Shown: positions 6,731-46,532 of the stretch, in pieces
How positions within the stretch are numbered: the first letter of the stretch is position 1
How the letters are laid out: each line of letters begins with the position of its first letter
Assembly (NCBI RefSeq): GCF_000427465.1
Contig: NZ_ATYB01000014.1
Location: 891,570-955,569, forward strand
Reading direction: 5' to 3'
DNA from: Sinorhizobium arboris LMG 14919
GTDB lineage: Bacteria; Pseudomonadota; Alphaproteobacteria; Rhizobiales; Rhizobiaceae
DNA length: 64,000 nucleotides
Program-made: the position numbers and the translations under genes
Notes under the pieces: generated by a model
Seen by the model: the letters and a program-made list of their open reading frames with translations, nothing else
The model's database searches: none
What the model was told of the DNA's origin: nothing

Positions 6731-6890
6731 CCCCTCATCCCGCTGCCGCGACCTTCTCCCCGTTGTGACGGGGCGAAGGGACAAGCTGCTGGATGGCCAT
6801 TTCCCCTTGAGCGCCCGAGAAGCGGAGCATCGCCGCGAGTCCCCTTCGCCCGCTTGCGGGGAGAAGGTGGCCGGCAGGCCGGATGAGGCG
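6731..6890. repeat. Long palindromic intergenic repeat
   Basis: The outer arms are CCCTCATCC (6732-6740) and GGATGAGGCGG (6881-6891). Inside, GACCTTCTCCCCG near 6760 pairs with GGGGAGAAGGTGG near 6860. It fills the gap between the convergent pssA and SDR genes and can fold on both strands, so it may also end both transcripts. Similar CCTTCTCCCCGC palindromes are common between rhizobial genes. Confidence 0.6.
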
Positions 6891-6904
6891 GAGGTGCCGC
6901 CAGC

Positions 6905-7645
6905 CTATTCCGGCATGCGGTAGTCGACGATCTTCTTATCCCGAACGATGAAAAGCTTGCCCGTCTCGGTCTGTTCGGGGCCGAACAGCGGCATCAGGGC
7001 CTGAGCGACCTCGGAGGGATGCGGCACGGTCTCCGGATCTTCGCCGGGCATCGCCTGTGCCCGCATGGCGGTGCGCGTGGCGCCCGGGTCGACGCTGAGG
7101 ATGCGCAGCGGCAGGCGCTGTGTCTCGTAGGCCCAGGTGCGTGCCAGCGCCTCGACCGCAGCCTTGGAGGCGGAGTAGGGGCCCCAGAAGGGCTTGCACT
7201 TGTGCGCGGCGCTCGAGGAGAGGATCAGGGCGCGGCCGGCATCGGAACGGACGAGCAGCGGCTCGAGCGAACGGATCAGGCGCCAGGTCGCAGTGACGTT
7301 GATCGCCATCACCTTTTCAAAGACCTTGGCCTCGATATGGCTGATCGGCGAGATCGTGCCGAGGACACCCGCATTGGCGACCATGATGTCGAGCTTGCCC
7401 CAGCGTTCGTTTATTGCGCCGCCGAGCTTGTCGATGGCGGCCATGTCCGAGAGATCGAAGGGGACGAGCGTTGCCGAACCGCCGAGAGCCTTGATCGCGT
7501 CGTCCAGCTCCTCCAGGCCGCCCACGGTGCGGGCGCAGGCGACGACATGGGCGCCGGCCTTGGCGAGTTCAAGAGCAGTGAAATAGCCGATCCCGCGCGA
7601 TGCGCCGGTGACGACGGCGATCCGGTCTTTCAGATTGGGCGTCAT
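6905..7645 (-). CDS. SDR family NAD(P)-dependent oxidoreductase
   Basis: A 246-residue classical short-chain dehydrogenase with the cofactor motif TGASRGIG at residues 14-21, the NAG motif (VANAGVLG) near 90 and the catalytic YSASK near 155. It starts 11 bases after the purF stop on the same strand, so the two are likely co-transcribed. The pairing with purF is common in rhizobia but gives no clue to the substrate. The C-terminal part (PSEVAQALMPLFG, FIVRDKKIVDYR) is typical of this subgroup. Confidence 0.85.
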   Translation of the reverse strand: MTPNLKDRIAVVTGASRGIGYFTALELAKAGAHVVACARTVGGLEELDDAIKALGGSATLVPFDLSDMAAIDKLGGAINERWGKLDIMVANAGVLGTISPISHIEAKVFEKVMAINVTATWRLIRSLEPLLVRSDAGRALILSSSAAHKCKPFWGPYSASKAAVEALARTWAYETQRLPLRILSVDPGATRTAMRAQAMPGEDPETVPHPSEVAQALMPLFGPEQTETGKLFIVRDKKIVDYRMPE

Positions 7646-7656
7646 GTTGCTGTTCG

Positions 7657-9147
7657 TTATCCGTTGCTGGCGAGAACCGAGAGTTTGCGGACGTTGCTCG
7701 CTGCCCCCTGATCGAGAAGGCGGGTCGGGTAGTCCCCGGTGAAGTAGTGATCGGTGAACTGCGGCGCCTGCGGATCGCGCGGTGCGCCGCCGACGGCACG
7801 ATAGAGCCCGTCAATCGAAAGGAATTCGAGCGAATCGGCGCCGATGAAGCGGCACATCGAGGCGAGGTCGGCATGCTGGTTGGCGAGCAGCTTGTCACGG
7901 TCCGGCGTATCGATGCCGTAGAAATCCGGATGGAAGATCATCGGGCTCGCGACGCGCACATGCACCTCGCGCGCGCCCGCGTCGCGCATCATCTGAACGA
8001 TCTTGACCGAGGTGGTGCCGCGCACGATCGAATCGTCGACCAGCACGACGCGCTTGCCGGCGATCATCGCCCGGTTCGCAGAATGCTTGAGCTTGACGCC
8101 GAAGGCGCGGATCTGCTGCGTCGGCTCGATGAAGGTCCGCCCGACATAGTGGTTGCGGATGATGCCCAGTTCGAATGGTATGCCGCTTTCCTGCGCGTAG
8201 CCGATTGCAGCCGGCGTACCGCCGTCCGGAACCGGCACCACGACATCCGCCTCGACGGGGGCTTCGATGGCGAGATTCTTGCCCATGTTCTTGCGCGCGA
8301 CGTAGACGTTACGGCCGCCGACGACCGAATCCGGCCGGGCGAAATAGACATATTCGAAAAGGCAGAGGCGCTCCGGCAGCGGGTTTTGCGGCTTGCGGGC
8401 GTCGATGGTGATCGATCCGTCCGGTTGAACCTCGCAGATGACGATTTCACCGTTCTCGATATCGCGGACGAATCTGGCGCCGATGATATCGAGGGCGCAG
8501 GTCTCCGAGCAGAAGATCGGCTTGCCGTCGAGTTCGCCCATGACGAGCGGGCGAATGCCGTTGGGATCGCGGGCGGCGATGAGCTTGGTGCGGGTCAGGG
8601 CCAGCATCGAATAGCCGCCTTCGACCTGGGCGATCGCGTCGGCGAAGCGATCGCTGGATGAGACGTGTTTCGACCGCGCTATCAGGTGCAGAACGACTTC
8701 GGTGTCGGATGTCGACTGACAGATGGCACCGTCAGCAATGATCTGGCGCCGAAGCGTCAGGCCGTTGGTGAAATTGCCGTTATGCGCGATTGCGATTCCG
8801 CCTTCCTGCAGCTCGGCAAAAAGCGGCTGGACGTTGCGCAGGACCGTCTCACCCGTGGTGGAGTAGCGAACATGGCCGATCGACATCGAACCGGGCAGCT
8901 TCGCGAGGGTTGCCGGGTCGGTATAATGGTCGCCGACGAGGCCCATCCGGCGTTCCGAATAGAACTGCCGCCCGTCGAAGGTCACGATACCGGCGGCTTC
9001 CTGCCCTCGATGCTGAAGCGCGTGCAGGCCGAGCGCCGTCAGCGCCGCAGCGTCAGGATGCCCGAGAATGCCGAAGACGCCGCACTCCTCATGAAGAGTG
9101 TCGCCGTCGAGTTCGTCATGGATTTCACTGGATCTGAGATCGGTCAT
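7657..9147 (-). CDS. purF: Amidophosphoribosyltransferase
   Basis: Catalyses the first committed step of purine synthesis, making 5-phosphoribosylamine from PRPP and glutamine. The 496-residue protein has a short propeptide and then the nucleophile Cys22 (HEECGVFGI). After it come the class II glutamine amidotransferase domain (to about 250) and a phosphoribosyltransferase domain with the PRPP loop VVLVDDSIVRGTTS. Four-helix cluster Cys residues typical of the Bacillus type are not obvious. Downstream on the same strand is an SDR gene, and upstream is cvpA, a gene often linked to purF in bacteria. Confidence 0.97.
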   Translation of the reverse strand: MTDLRSSEIHDELDGDTLHEECGVFGILGHPDAAALTALGLHALQHRGQEAAGIVTFDGRQFYSERRMGLVGDHYTDPATLAKLPGSMSIGHVRYSTTGETVLRNVQPLFAELQEGGIAIAHNGNFTNGLTLRRQIIADGAICQSTSDTEVVLHLIARSKHVSSSDRFADAIAQVEGGYSMLALTRTKLIAARDPNGIRPLVMGELDGKPIFCSETCALDIIGARFVRDIENGEIVICEVQPDGSITIDARKPQNPLPERLCLFEYVYFARPDSVVGGRNVYVARKNMGKNLAIEAPVEADVVVPVPDGGTPAAIGYAQESGIPFELGIIRNHYVGRTFIEPTQQIRAFGVKLKHSANRAMIAGKRVVLVDDSIVRGTTSVKIVQMMRDAGAREVHVRVASPMIFHPDFYGIDTPDRDKLLANQHADLASMCRFIGADSLEFLSIDGLYRAVGGAPRDPQAPQFTDHYFTGDYPTRLLDQGAASNVRKLSVLASNG

Positions 9148-42564: not shown

Positions 42565-42880
42565 CCGGGCCTTTTGCCCGGACTTTTTTGGGAAGGCAAG
42601 AGGCTCGCGTCACGGCTTTCGCCTTCGTGCGAATAAGAACTCCGGGGCCATTTTCAAGGGAGGATTGTTATGGATTCATGGACAACGTGTTCCGATAATC
42701 AATGCTTCCCATCCTCATCATGAGGCCCCACATCTTCCCATGGAGAGCACGAGAATGCTCTTCTGACCCTTTGATCGGACCGGGCGCCATCGGCGAGGCC
42801 ACCGCGTCCGGAATAGTGCCGATCATGGCGGTCGCGACGAAACCCTCGTTCAAGCGAACGACCGATCAGGAGTGATGATC
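42565..42880. other. Upstream region of ABC-F and small secreted protein genes
   Basis: 316 bases between divergent genes. It contains short stretches such as an AGAGCA/TGCTCT hairpin near 42744-42761, and AGGAG at 42868-42872, the ribosome site of the next gene. Two promoters are expected, but no boxes are convincing. No gene is seen. Confidence 0.3.
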
Positions 42881-43156
42881 ATGAGGAACGCAATCCATAC
42901 TGCTCTCGCCGCTACGCTCGTGGCCACAGCCGTTCTCGGCGGTGCATCCGCAGCCTTTGCCGGCGGCAGCTATTATCAGGGTGTCAGCGACAAGCCGCTC
43001 TACACCGAGCGCGCTCCGCAGGCACGCGGCGCCGCGGTCATCCGCCGCGCAGACGGTTCGATCGATCGCACATCCACCGGCTCGGTCGGCTATGCATCGC
43101 AGCCGAAAGTCGTCTCCGGCGGTGAAGGCGAATATTACCAGGGCCTCAGCCGTTAA
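42881..43156 (+). CDS. Small secreted protein with terminal YYQG motifs, unknown function
   Basis: 91 residues. A signal peptide (MRNAIHTALAATLVATAVLG, cleavage near AFA-GG) leaves a mature peptide of about 60 residues. That peptide begins GGSYYQGVSDKPLY and ends GEYYQGLSR, so the YYQG motif brackets it. It is rich in Gly, Ser, Arg and Tyr and has no Cys. ATG 42881 fits AGGAG at 8 bases; an earlier GTG and ATG are too close. I do not recognise a family. A strong terminator follows. Confidence 0.75.
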   Translation: MRNAIHTALAATLVATAVLGGASAAFAGGSYYQGVSDKPLYTERAPQARGAAVIRRADGSIDRTSTGSVGYASQPKVVSGGEGEYYQGLSR

Positions 43157-43340: not shown

Positions 43341-43369
43341 CTTGACGATCAGAGTCAGCAATAATATGC
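43341..43369 (+). promoter_or_regulatory. Candidate sigma-70-type promoter of the fusion gene
   Basis: CTTGAC at 43341-43346 matches the rhizobial -35 form. 17 bases on, AATATG at 43364-43369 is an imperfect -10. The start codon at 43395 follows at a plausible distance. By eye only. Confidence 0.35.
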
Positions 43370-43394
43370 CGCCTTGCTAAAATGGAAGGTGGCA

Positions 43395-46052
43395 ATGGGC
43401 GGCTCAAGCGAATTTTCGGTAGCTCCGTTTTGTGTTGCAAGTCTGGCCGCGCGGGGGCATCGGCCGGCGCTGCTGTTGCGCGGCGGGCGGATCGTCAGCT
43501 ATCACGAACTTGCCGAGCGCGTTGCGCGTCTGGCGCACCAATGGCGCGGCGATCGCGGCCTGGTGATGATCGAAGCCGACCTTTCCGAGCACGCCGTCGT
43601 CGCTTATCTGGCGGCCCTAGAGGCCGGTCACGCGGTCGCCCTCTGCGGCCCCGCTTCGATGGTCAAGGATCGCGACGTCCTCAAACCGGACTATTGCTAC
43701 CGCCGTTTCGATGGCCGCTGGCGCATGGAGCGGCTGAAGGGAGACGCGATCGCGCCGCATCCCGAACTTGCCGTCCTGCTCTCGACGTCCGGCAGTACGG
43801 GATACGGAAAATGGGTGCGCCTGTCGCACATGAACATCCAATCCAACGCGCGGTCGATTGGCGAATATCTCGGCCTGACCGCAGCGGACCGAGCCTGCCT
43901 CATCCTGCCGCTCCATTATTCCTACGGGCTTTCCGTTCTGAGCGCCCACCTCGCCGTGGGCGCGAGCGTCTACATGCCGGGCCGATCGATTCTCGAAGAT
44001 GGCTTCCTCGATGAACTTGCGCAGAGCGGCAGCTCCAATCTCTCCGGTGTTCCCTATTCCTATGACCTCCTGGAAAAAGTGGGATTCCGCGACCGGGATT
44101 TTCCGAAGCTGCGTTTCATGACGGTGGCCGGCGGACGCATGTCGCCGGAACTCGTTCGCCGCTACAATGAGCATCTTTCGGCGCGCGACGCGTGTCTTTT
44201 CGTGATGTACGGCCAGACAGAGGCGACGGCTCGGATGGCCTATATGCCGCCGGAACGTCTCCGGGGCAGGGAAGACCGGATCGGCATCGCGATTCCGGGC
44301 GGTAGCCTGACGATCGAGGATGAAAATGGAAGGATAATCTCCAGCGCCGATCAGGCCGGCGAGCTTGTTTATCGCGGCCCGAATGTGATGATGGGCTACG
44401 CGTCGTCACGCGCCGATCTCGCGCGGGGGGCCGAACTGTCGGAATTGCGGACCGGCGATCTGGCGGCAAGAGACGTGGATGGCTTTTTTCGGATCGTGGG
44501 ACGAACGAAGCGGATATCGAAGATTGCCGGCCTCCGGATCAGCCACGACAGTCTGGAAGCGGCTCTTGAGCGGCAAGGCGTCGCTGCCGCGGTCGTCGGC
44601 AACGACACCGAAGTCCATGCCTATTATGCAGGAAGCCGCGATCCGGATGAAGTCCGCCGCCTGCTCGTCGAAGCGAGCGGCCTGACATTGCTGCATGTCC
44701 GTGCTTCGCGCCTGGACAACCTTCCGAGAACGGCTTCCGGCAAGATCGACTACCCGGCCCTTGCCGTCCAGTCGGCTGCGGGGGCGTGCGCCAGTTCGGA
44801 AGAGGGGAGCGTGGAGGCACTTTTTACCCAGCTCTTCTATCCGAGGAGGGTTCGATCGGAGGACAGCTTTCTGTCGCTTGGTGGCGATTCGCTCCGGTTT
44901 GTTCAGCTTTCGATCGGGCTCGAGAGAACCCTCGGAGAACTGCCGGAGGCCTGGGAAAAGCTGTCGATCGGCGAACTCGCTGCCCTGAGCGGCCGCGAGC
45001 GCAAGTACCGCCAGATCGGCACGGATCTGCTGATCCGGGCGCTGGCGATCCTGCTGGTCGTGGTTCACCACGAGACACTTTGGCCCATTCCGGGCGGATC
45101 CGCTGCGATGGTCATTCTCGCCGGCTTCGGTCTTGCACGATTCCAGAGCGGGGCGTTGTTCTCGGGCGCGATAGGAAGGCTGCTGCGGCCGCTTACGCAG
45201 ATCCTCGTTCCCTATTATCTGATCGTGGCCGGCTACGCGCTCGCCTGGGGCGACGTGCCCTGGGCTTCGGTCTTTCTGGTCGGCAATTTCGGCTTTGCCG
45301 ATCCGGGACGCCACAGCATGGTGCCCTATCTCTACTGGTTCATCGAAGCCTACTGCCAAATGCTGCTTTTGTTTGGCGCTCTTTTTGCTGTTCCGTTCGT
45401 CCGGCGCGCGGCGGCGAAGAGGCCCTTTGCCGCCGGCATGGTGCTGTTCACCGCGGCCTTTGCCGCCCGCATGGCTTTTCCGCTTCTCGTCGATATCGGC
45501 AACCGCCAGATATTCACCCTTCCATGGATATTCTACATGGCTGTGCTGGGCTGGTGTGCGGCAATGGCCGCAACGTGGAAAGAGCGCTCGATGGTGATGC
45601 TGGCAGGAACAGGCGTATTCCTGTTCCTCGGGCTTTATGAGGGCGTCTGGATCGGTACGAAAGTCAAATATCTGCTGCAGATCGCCGTATTGGCCGCGCT
45701 GCTTTTCCTGCCGCGCATTCGCATGCCGCAATGGGGTTCGCGGCTGATCCTGCCGCTGTCTGCAGCGGGCTTCCATATCTATATCCTGCACCGTTTCGTG
45801 CCTGAATTGCTGCTGCTGCAGATCCAGCCGTTCCTCGCGCCATCCGCCTTTGCCCTCTGCTCCATCGTCGGCGGCATCGCGCTTGGGATTTCCGCCTGGC
45901 TGGGGCAGCGTCGGCTCATCGCATGGCTTGCCTGCGCCCGAGGCGGGCGCATCTCGCTTGCCCCGGCGGGCGGGCTTGGGCCGGGGTTCGCCTCAGTCGG
46001 CCCACTTCTCGCCCTCGGTCCGCAGGAAGAAAACCAGGTCCAGCGTCAGTGA
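43395..46052 (+). CDS. Three-domain fusion: adenylation enzyme, carrier domain and membrane acyltransferase
   Basis: 885 residues from ATG 43395 (GGAAGG lies 5 bases before it). Residues 1-470 form an AMP-binding adenylation domain with TSGSTG near 132, YGQTEA, RTGDLA, a GRTKRISK hinge and PRTASGKIDY (the A10 lysine). Residues about 475-540 are a carrier domain with LGGDSL, so Ser499 should take phosphopantetheine. From about 545, ten or so hydrophobic segments start with RALAILLVVVHHE, as in acyltransferase-3 proteins. The order implies an acid is activated, loaded and passed to a membrane transferase that modifies an envelope polymer or lipid, as DltA, DltC and DltB do separately. The substrate is unknown. 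No NRPS modules or phosphopantetheinyl transferase are nearby. The 3' end overlaps the convergent dinB-like gene by 60 bases. Confidence 0.85.
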   Translation: MGGSSEFSVAPFCVASLAARGHRPALLLRGGRIVSYHELAERVARLAHQWRGDRGLVMIEADLSEHAVVAYLAALEAGHAVALCGPASMVKDRDVLKPDYCYRRFDGRWRMERLKGDAIAPHPELAVLLSTSGSTGYGKWVRLSHMNIQSNARSIGEYLGLTAADRACLILPLHYSYGLSVLSAHLAVGASVYMPGRSILEDGFLDELAQSGSSNLSGVPYSYDLLEKVGFRDRDFPKLRFMTVAGGRMSPELVRRYNEHLSARDACLFVMYGQTEATARMAYMPPERLRGREDRIGIAIPGGSLTIEDENGRIISSADQAGELVYRGPNVMMGYASSRADLARGAELSELRTGDLAARDVDGFFRIVGRTKRISKIAGLRISHDSLEAALERQGVAAAVVGNDTEVHAYYAGSRDPDEVRRLLVEASGLTLLHVRASRLDNLPRTASGKIDYPALAVQSAAGACASSEEGSVEALFTQLFYPRRVRSEDSFLSLGGDSLRFVQLSIGLERTLGELPEAWEKLSIGELAALSGRERKYRQIGTDLLIRALAILLVVVHHETLWPIPGGSAAMVILAGFGLARFQSGALFSGAIGRLLRPLTQILVPYYLIVAGYALAWGDVPWASVFLVGNFGFADPGRHSMVPYLYWFIEAYCQMLLLFGALFAVPFVRRAAAKRPFAAGMVLFTAAFAARMAFPLLVDIGNRQIFTLPWIFYMAVLGWCAAMAATWKERSMVMLAGTGVFLFLGLYEGVWIGTKVKYLLQIAVLAALLFLPRIRMPQWGSRLILPLSAAGFHIYILHRFVPELLLLQIQPFLAPSAFALCSIVGGIALGISAWLGQRRLIAWLACARGGRISLAPAGGLGPGFASVGPLLALGPQEENQVQRQ

Positions 46053-46505
46053 GGGGTGCTTAAGCGCGGTCAGGGTCGCATGCGCCTGGCCGCGGTGATG
46101 GGTCTGGTGGTTGAAGAAATGCGCAAGCGTCCGTCCGAGTCTTTCCGTGATCTCGACGGGATTGGTCAGCGGAGAATAGGTGATGCGCCCTGCAAGACGC
46201 TTCTCGTCGAGGCTGTCGATCCACGCAATGATCCGCTCGTCCTCGGCTACCCTCGCCGCCGTCAGTCCGATCAAATCGTCGTGCAGGATGGCGTCGAGCC
46301 GAGAGGGCGCTTCGCCGTCTTTCGTAAATCGCTTCATCCAGATACGGTCTGCCGCGAGGATATGGTTCAGCGTCCCGTGCAGCGAGCCGAAAAACGCTCC
46401 CTTGTTCTCCCGGTATTCCGAGTCCGACAATTCCGAGGCGGCAGCATAGAGCCGCCTGTTGGCCCAGCGATTATAGTCGGCGAACATTCGGTAATGGTCG
46501 TGCAT
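45993..46505 (-). CDS. DinB family protein
   Basis: 170 residues from ATG 46505, preceded by CAGGAG at 7 bases. The four-helix DinB/YfiT fold is marked by the metal-binding His of LNHILAADRIW and of FFNHQTHHRGQAH. Many such proteins are metal-dependent thiol transferases, but individual roles are mostly unknown. Its 3' end overlaps the end of the large fusion gene on the other strand. Confidence 0.88.
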   Translation of the reverse strand: MHDHYRMFADYNRWANRRLYAAASELSDSEYRENKGAFFGSLHGTLNHILAADRIWMKRFTKDGEAPSRLDAILHDDLIGLTAARVAEDERIIAWIDSLDEKRLAGRITYSPLTNPVEITERLGRTLAHFFNHQTHHRGQAHATLTALKHPSLTLDLVFFLRTEGEKWAD

Positions 46506-46532
46506 CGGCAATCTCCTGGATCATGGTGATTC

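Follow-up and report, generated by a model that had tools for sequence, protein, structure and literature searches.

Results

Domain Organization of the Fusion Gene

We analyzed a window of 64,000 nucleotides (the whole stretch of DNA under study) from Sinorhizobium arboris LMG 14919 (contig NZ_ATYB01000014.1, positions 891,570 to 955,569), in which one gene, here called the fusion gene, encodes an adenylation domain, a carrier domain and an AT3/TmAT membrane domain in a single chain and lies behind a predicted binding site for RirA. Its parts, in window coordinates, are as follows.

43395..46052, plus strand: A-T-AT3 fusion gene (P0001), 885 residues, from ATG 43395 to stop 46052
43755..44777, plus strand: best-matched part of the adenylation domain (about residues 121-461), PF00501 at 1.2e-41, Foldseek matches to 5ie2 and other adenylating enzymes
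44826..45002, plus strand: carrier (PP-binding) domain, about residues 478-536, PF00550 in 35 of 44 relatives
44889..44891, plus strand: Ser499, predicted site of phosphopantetheine attachment, unchanged in all 122 relatives and in all 44 wider relatives
45003..45932, plus strand: AT3/TmAT membrane domain, residues 537-846
45036..45071, plus strand: R548-x10-H559 AT3 catalytic motif, R548 in 119 of 122 relatives (K in 3), H559 in 122 of 122

The fusion gene is a genuine conserved gene, with full-length relatives at 49-87% identity; the copy in S. meliloti Ak57 is annotated at 885 residues, equal to the protein here (an alternative TTG start at 43374 would add seven residues). The translation contains TSGSTG (131-136), YGQTEA (272-277), ASGKIDY (447-453), LGGDSL with Ser499, and RALAILLVVVHHE at 548-560; the core adenylation motifs and the phosphopantetheine Ser of an adenylation-carrier didomain of the non-ribosomal peptide synthetase (NRPS) type are both present. 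When the query was searched alone, Pfam returned AMP-binding (PF00501, 1.2e-41) and PP-binding (PF00550) at 0.0016, narrowly below the cut-off. Among 44 aligned relatives (E up to 0.01), AMP-binding was found in 44, PP-binding in 35 and Acyl_transf_3 in 27 (best 8.7e-12), with no other Pfam family, and in some relatives all three domains are precomputed on a single chain. No condensation domain was matched in the query (E up to 1) or in these relatives (E up to 0.01). The open reading frame (ORF), the motifs and the Pfam results on relatives agree with the original prediction, made from the letters of the window, of an adenylation enzyme, a carrier and a membrane acyltransferase in one polypeptide.

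Adenylation and Carrier Domains

Compared by sequence with the PDB, the whole fusion protein ranks gramicidin synthetase A first, and oxalate-CoA ligase is the top PDB match both of the adenylation region by sequence and of the full model in Foldseek; HitB, MenE, malonyl-CoA synthetase, NRPS-type adenylation domains and others are also among the Foldseek matches listed. In the structure model, a helix begins at Ser499. Alignment with VinN matches residue 176 to an Asp that we take to be the amine-binding residue. This position is Ser in 100, Cys in 21 and Ala in one of the 122 relatives, never Asp, and Ser in 33, Cys in 10 and Ile in one of the 44 wider relatives. Since Asp is missing at residue 176, neither D-alanine nor any other standard alpha-amino acid is a likely substrate, as far as the sequence indicates. 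R280, invariant in all 122 relatives, is aligned with an Arg of VinN, presumably the carboxylate binder; an Arg in this position may be kept for other reasons in similar enzymes, and therefore we claim no substrate. Two His residues of oxalate-CoA ligase, which we assume to bind its substrate, are both aligned with different residues in the fusion protein.

The Membrane Domain

The R-x10-H motif of AT3 enzymes is described in the excerpted text of PMC9833829, and in the 44 wider relatives its two positions are R in 42 (R548) and H in 44 (H559). The AT3 His and Arg residues, whose absence from an ordinary permease the original prediction had named as a possible refutation, are present. Averaged over the family, hydropathy shows about ten hydrophobic segments between residues 545 and 833. 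A structure search with the membrane half returned the TmAT fold, with HGSNAT and GWT1 as best matches; no MBOAT chain was among the matches listed, an unlisted family still being possible, and a PDB sequence-profile search using the AT3 alignment gave zero matches at E up to 1. The RxxR of transmembrane helix 3, taken as R595/R598 in a region where the alignment to AT3 is uncertain, has R598 in 112, R595 in 53 and both in 48 of the 122 relatives. That it is mostly not intact might, given a correct alignment, fit a carrier-bound donor replacing coenzyme A (CoA). In one relative (L079), the adenylation-carrier part (6826-8550, minus strand, 574 residues) stops just before a separate AT3 frame of 334 residues; there, the function of the fusion may be split over two genes.

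A Predicted RirA Box Overlaps a Promoter-Like Stretch

Two features precede the fusion gene.

43342..43370, plus strand: promoter-like stretch (TTGACG -35-like, AT-rich -10-like element, both read from the sequence), overlapped by the IRO box
43343..43357, plus strand: exact IRO (RirA) box TGACGATCAGAGTCA, TGA-N9-TCA, matching the definition in the excerpted text of PMC6386902

The RirA-bound IRO box is given as TGA-N9-TCA (PMC6386902, in excerpt), and here it overlaps the TTGAC -35-like element. The gene had earlier been credited with its own promoter candidate; the promoter-like stretch is indeed present, while the RirA box lying over it had been overlooked. The consensus across 60 orthologue upstreams is TACTTGAC-N8-TCA-N3-ATTATA. 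In a first set of 48 loci, which takes in divergent and truncated copies, an exact box lies within 200 bp upstream in 31, against a shuffling expectation of 1.6 sites. In a second set, the best 80 of 142 loci less two with no usable upstream, it lies within 150 bp upstream in 61 of 78 named orthologues; in the same loci, TGA-N9-TCA occurs in 810 of 11538 random 160-bp windows (7%). The two sets share genomes, and the relatives are not independent. Where the upstream carries TTGAC, the dyad is completed by TCA in 60 of 70 cases, compared with 101 of 1144 control TTGACs (8.8%), and the spacers among orthologues comprise 45 different sequences between constant arms. Four changes suffice to explain presence and absence of the box on a gene tree built from 75 of these 78 loci, three having been left out for their short frames. 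These patterns suggest that RirA binds the predicted box and that the fusion gene responds to iron.

In the S. arboris genome, TTGAC-N7-GTCA occurs 31 and 29 times on the two strands, compared with 11 and 8 for the reversed pattern. Six of these 60 matches were chosen by eye for AT-rich spacers, a biased and illustrative sample. Three of the six lie 58, 70 and 150 bp before ORFs assigned by Pfam to Peripla_BP_2, a TonB receptor plug and a class-V aminotransferase, respectively; the former two are iron-uptake types, and the last may be a cysteine desulphurase. One of these three sites is clear of ORFs, one falls in the last bases of a 274-residue ORF and the third lies in two mechanical ORFs (236 and 259 residues). 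Two more ORFs flanking chosen sites gave no family and a methyltransferase.

Expression and Iron-Related Neighbors

In S. meliloti, the gene order is fusion gene, DinB, GST, ndk, and ndk is SMc00595; therefore, the fusion gene should be SMc00592. Listed as a 'hypothetical, transmembrane protein', SMc00592 is up under swarming conditions (M 1.47 in SS/L at 14 h and 1.30 in SS/S at 7 h), and hmu, fhu, exbBD and shmR genes, among them genes of haem and of siderophore uptake, rise in the same two microarray columns (PMC2848241, in excerpt). The text of that paper, the only one found on SMc00591-594 in the open-licence literature, mentions the tag once.

Homologs of FbpA, FbpB and FbpC adjoin the fusion gene in 10 of 127 loci (8 genomes after deduplication; L169, a weak FbpB-only match, is left out), divergently in some loci and on the same strand in others. 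A tree of 75 loci that includes six FbpABC-adjacent ones requires two origins of the adjacency. In two Leisingera loci (L177 and L180), about 6 kb separate the relative from a zinc/metal ATP-binding cassette (ABC) transporter and from a gene whose annotation is transcriptional repressor; metal control may extend past RirA species.

Distribution and Genomic Neighborhood

The S. arboris genome holds a single full copy of the fusion gene. Its AT3 region was found in all 33 genomes from the genus Sinorhizobium, in 39 of 394 sampled from the family (three being weak distant matches) and in 10 of 297 from the order, the S. arboris genome being included in each count. The best 80 of 142 loci belong mainly to Sinorhizobium/Ensifer, Rhizobium, Mesorhizobium, Phyllobacterium and Shinella, with a few Rhodobacteraceae and others, and a related subfamily is carried on plasmids of Leisingera, Paracoccus, Rhodobacter and NT-25. 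A start-to-stop walk through Rhizobium-type copies gave no long frame in L146 and frames of 517, 505 and 708 residues in L154, L161 and L032, which hints at decay of the fusion gene. Two further roles were considered and discarded: transfer of 3-hydroxybutyrate to lipid A or exopolysaccharide fits poorly with so patchy a distribution across the order, and tailoring of rhizobactin 1021 was dropped in view of the gene's presence in every one of the 33 Sinorhizobium genomes searched.

In 12 annotated regions, the neighbors vary between genera and are partly common within Sinorhizobium/Ensifer. Among 366 neighbor ORFs at loci that do not belong to the Sinorhizobium set, where most clusters are unannotated, no conserved operon partner was found; the biggest cluster covers 12 loci, its annotated or scanned members being ABC ATPases, and four clusters cover 4 loci each, one of them an FbpB permease. 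No common neighbor set is recognizable in the divergent relatives L077 and L078 or in five Rhodobacterales/NT-25 plasmid regions, and some of these copies have a close same-strand upstream gene, so that stand-alone status is not proved for each. Inside the window, the S. arboris genome has no adenylation-domain match besides the fusion gene, in line with the earlier remark that it has no NRPS neighbors. Apart from it, contigs C5, C6 and C7 of this genome hold several long adenylation-matching frames (1116-3399 residues) that look like NRPS genes.

At its 3' end (45993-46052), the fusion gene overlaps tail to tail with a minus-strand ORF (45993-46511), the counterpart of a DinB-family gene in S. 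meliloti Ak57, where the overlap is annotated too. Directly upstream of the fusion gene is an ORF of 94 residues (42872-43156) whose start resembles a signal peptide by eye, and a small hypothetical gene occupies the equivalent position in S. meliloti Ak57. In the records viewed, the annotation of the fusion gene goes no further than 'AMP-binding protein' or AMP-dependent synthetase. No paper naming an adenylation-carrier-AT3 fusion was found in the open-licence literature, whether the search was for such fusions or for RirA together with a gene of this type.

Discussion

The domains, conserved residues, fold and IRO box of the fusion gene, along with its FbpABC neighborhood in some genomes, come directly from the computation. 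Because the evidence for iron-responsive control is strong, we place its likely role in iron starvation, and, on balance, we favor the explanation that it is a gene of the RirA regulon encoding a one-protein acyl-transfer machine, most likely for ferric-iron scavenging. When iron is plentiful, RirA on the IRO box over the promoter would repress the gene, which would be expressed when iron is short. The adenylation domain would then activate a carboxylic acid other than a standard alpha-amino acid and load it onto the phosphopantetheine arm of Ser499. By means of R548 and H559, the AT3 domain would pass the acyl group through the membrane to an acceptor on the periplasmic face; the binding of RirA, the loading, the transfer and its direction are what we infer. 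Our guess, drawn from the regulation and from FbpABC, is that the product is an iron ligand, made or modified, in the form of a small chelator or of a group on the cell surface, which feeds importers such as FbpABC, and any identity proposed for the acid or the acceptor would be a guess as well. We speculate further, and with considerable doubt, that this iron-repressed single gene could be a complete iron-ligand factory, its one membrane protein giving rise to a new small chelator or an iron-binding surface group that supplies FbpABC-type transport with no NRPS or NRPS-independent siderophore (NIS) cluster.

Several observations weigh against this explanation. Acyl_transf_3 has no match in the query alone (Pfam), nor in a PF01757 search of its own genome, and the full-length structure model (predicted template modeling score, pTM, 0.50) leaves the domain arrangement uncertain. 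SMc00592 is the likely S. meliloti orthologue on the basis of gene order and tag numbering. The adjacency to FbpABC is confined to the 10 loci counted above, the other neighbors viewed being mostly unrelated to iron. An exact IRO box is absent in 17 of the 78 loci, including all three Phyllobacterium loci, Nitratireductor, Antarcticirhabdus and six Rhizobium; of the 12 box-less loci printed, eight have by eye a one-base-off dyad and four have none. Moreover, TTGAC-N7-GTCA is enriched in the S. arboris genome, yet many of its copies must be due to chance, and three of the six chosen matches fall within long ORFs.

The best-surviving alternative, possible although clearly less probable, is that the protein remodels a surface glycan or lipid by iron-responsive acylation and binds no iron, so that the surface or motility is altered under starvation. 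The AT3 proteins gathered in one review have envelope glycans as their acylation targets (PMC9558356, in excerpt), SMc00592 is induced under swarming conditions (PMC2848241, in excerpt), and the IRO box speaks for this alternative too. However, the identifiable recurrent neighbor is FbpABC, and besides the ABC ATPases no neighbor cluster reaches more than 4 non-Sinorhizobium loci, most clusters being unannotated. It is quite improbable that the protein works like the Dlt system, activating an amino acid and attaching it to an envelope glycan, lipid or lipopolysaccharide. The order of steps is that of DltA-DltC-DltB, the adenylation and carrier domains look like those of NRPSs, and the sequence matches include DltA, which ranks below the best one; but the Ser, Cys or Ala at residue 176 in all 122 relatives, the TmAT structures matched by the membrane half (DltB is an MBOAT) and the apparent control by iron all argue against it, and the DltA-like amino-acid chemistry of the original prediction is not supported. 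That TGA-N9-TCA is simply a conserved -35 element (TTGAC) with an incidental TCA and no iron control is very improbable: TTGAC does resemble a -35 element whose conservation is expected anyway, and the dyad is not rare in random windows, but the excess of TCA at the dyad position, the 45 spacers and the co-induction of SMc00592 with iron genes (PMC2848241, in excerpt) speak otherwise.

The analysis equips a gene found in all 33 Sinorhizobium genomes searched with a definite architecture, a likely regulator and a role that can be put to the test. If the fusion makes or places an iron ligand, it would be a component of rhizobial iron uptake outside the known siderophore clusters and, as a complete ligand factory, a core Sinorhizobium trait that siderophore gene-cluster surveys may overlook; AT3 enzymes would also, if our explanation is true, include one supplied by a dedicated fused carrier rather than by the CoA pool.

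Comparison With Known Systems

The fusion shares the TmAT fold, R-x10-H and the expected transmembrane transfer with AT3 (PF01757)/TmAT acyltransferases such as OafB, OatA and HGSNAT, but differs from them in carrying its own adenylation and carrier domains; in the excerpted text of PMC9558356 and PMC9833829, the fusion partners named for AT3 are SGNH and alanine racemase and, in eukaryotes, NRF or other domains. The adenylation domain has as its top NCBIfam match TIGR03098, the exosortase A-associated acyl-CoA ligase (4.5e-47, residues 122-457), with 160.7 bits where the cut-off is 592.

Glycine-lipid A AlmEFG and petrobactin AsbC-AsbD-AsbE, the latter iron-related, are likewise triads of ligase, carrier and transferase, but consist of separate proteins with other kinds of transferase, whereas the fusion is one protein. 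DltA-DltC-DltB activates, carries and transfers through the membrane in the same succession; in contrast, the fusion is one chain with a TmAT-like membrane half and no Asp at the amine-binding position. The analogy with D-alanine fits the order of the steps, but neither the chemistry nor the family.
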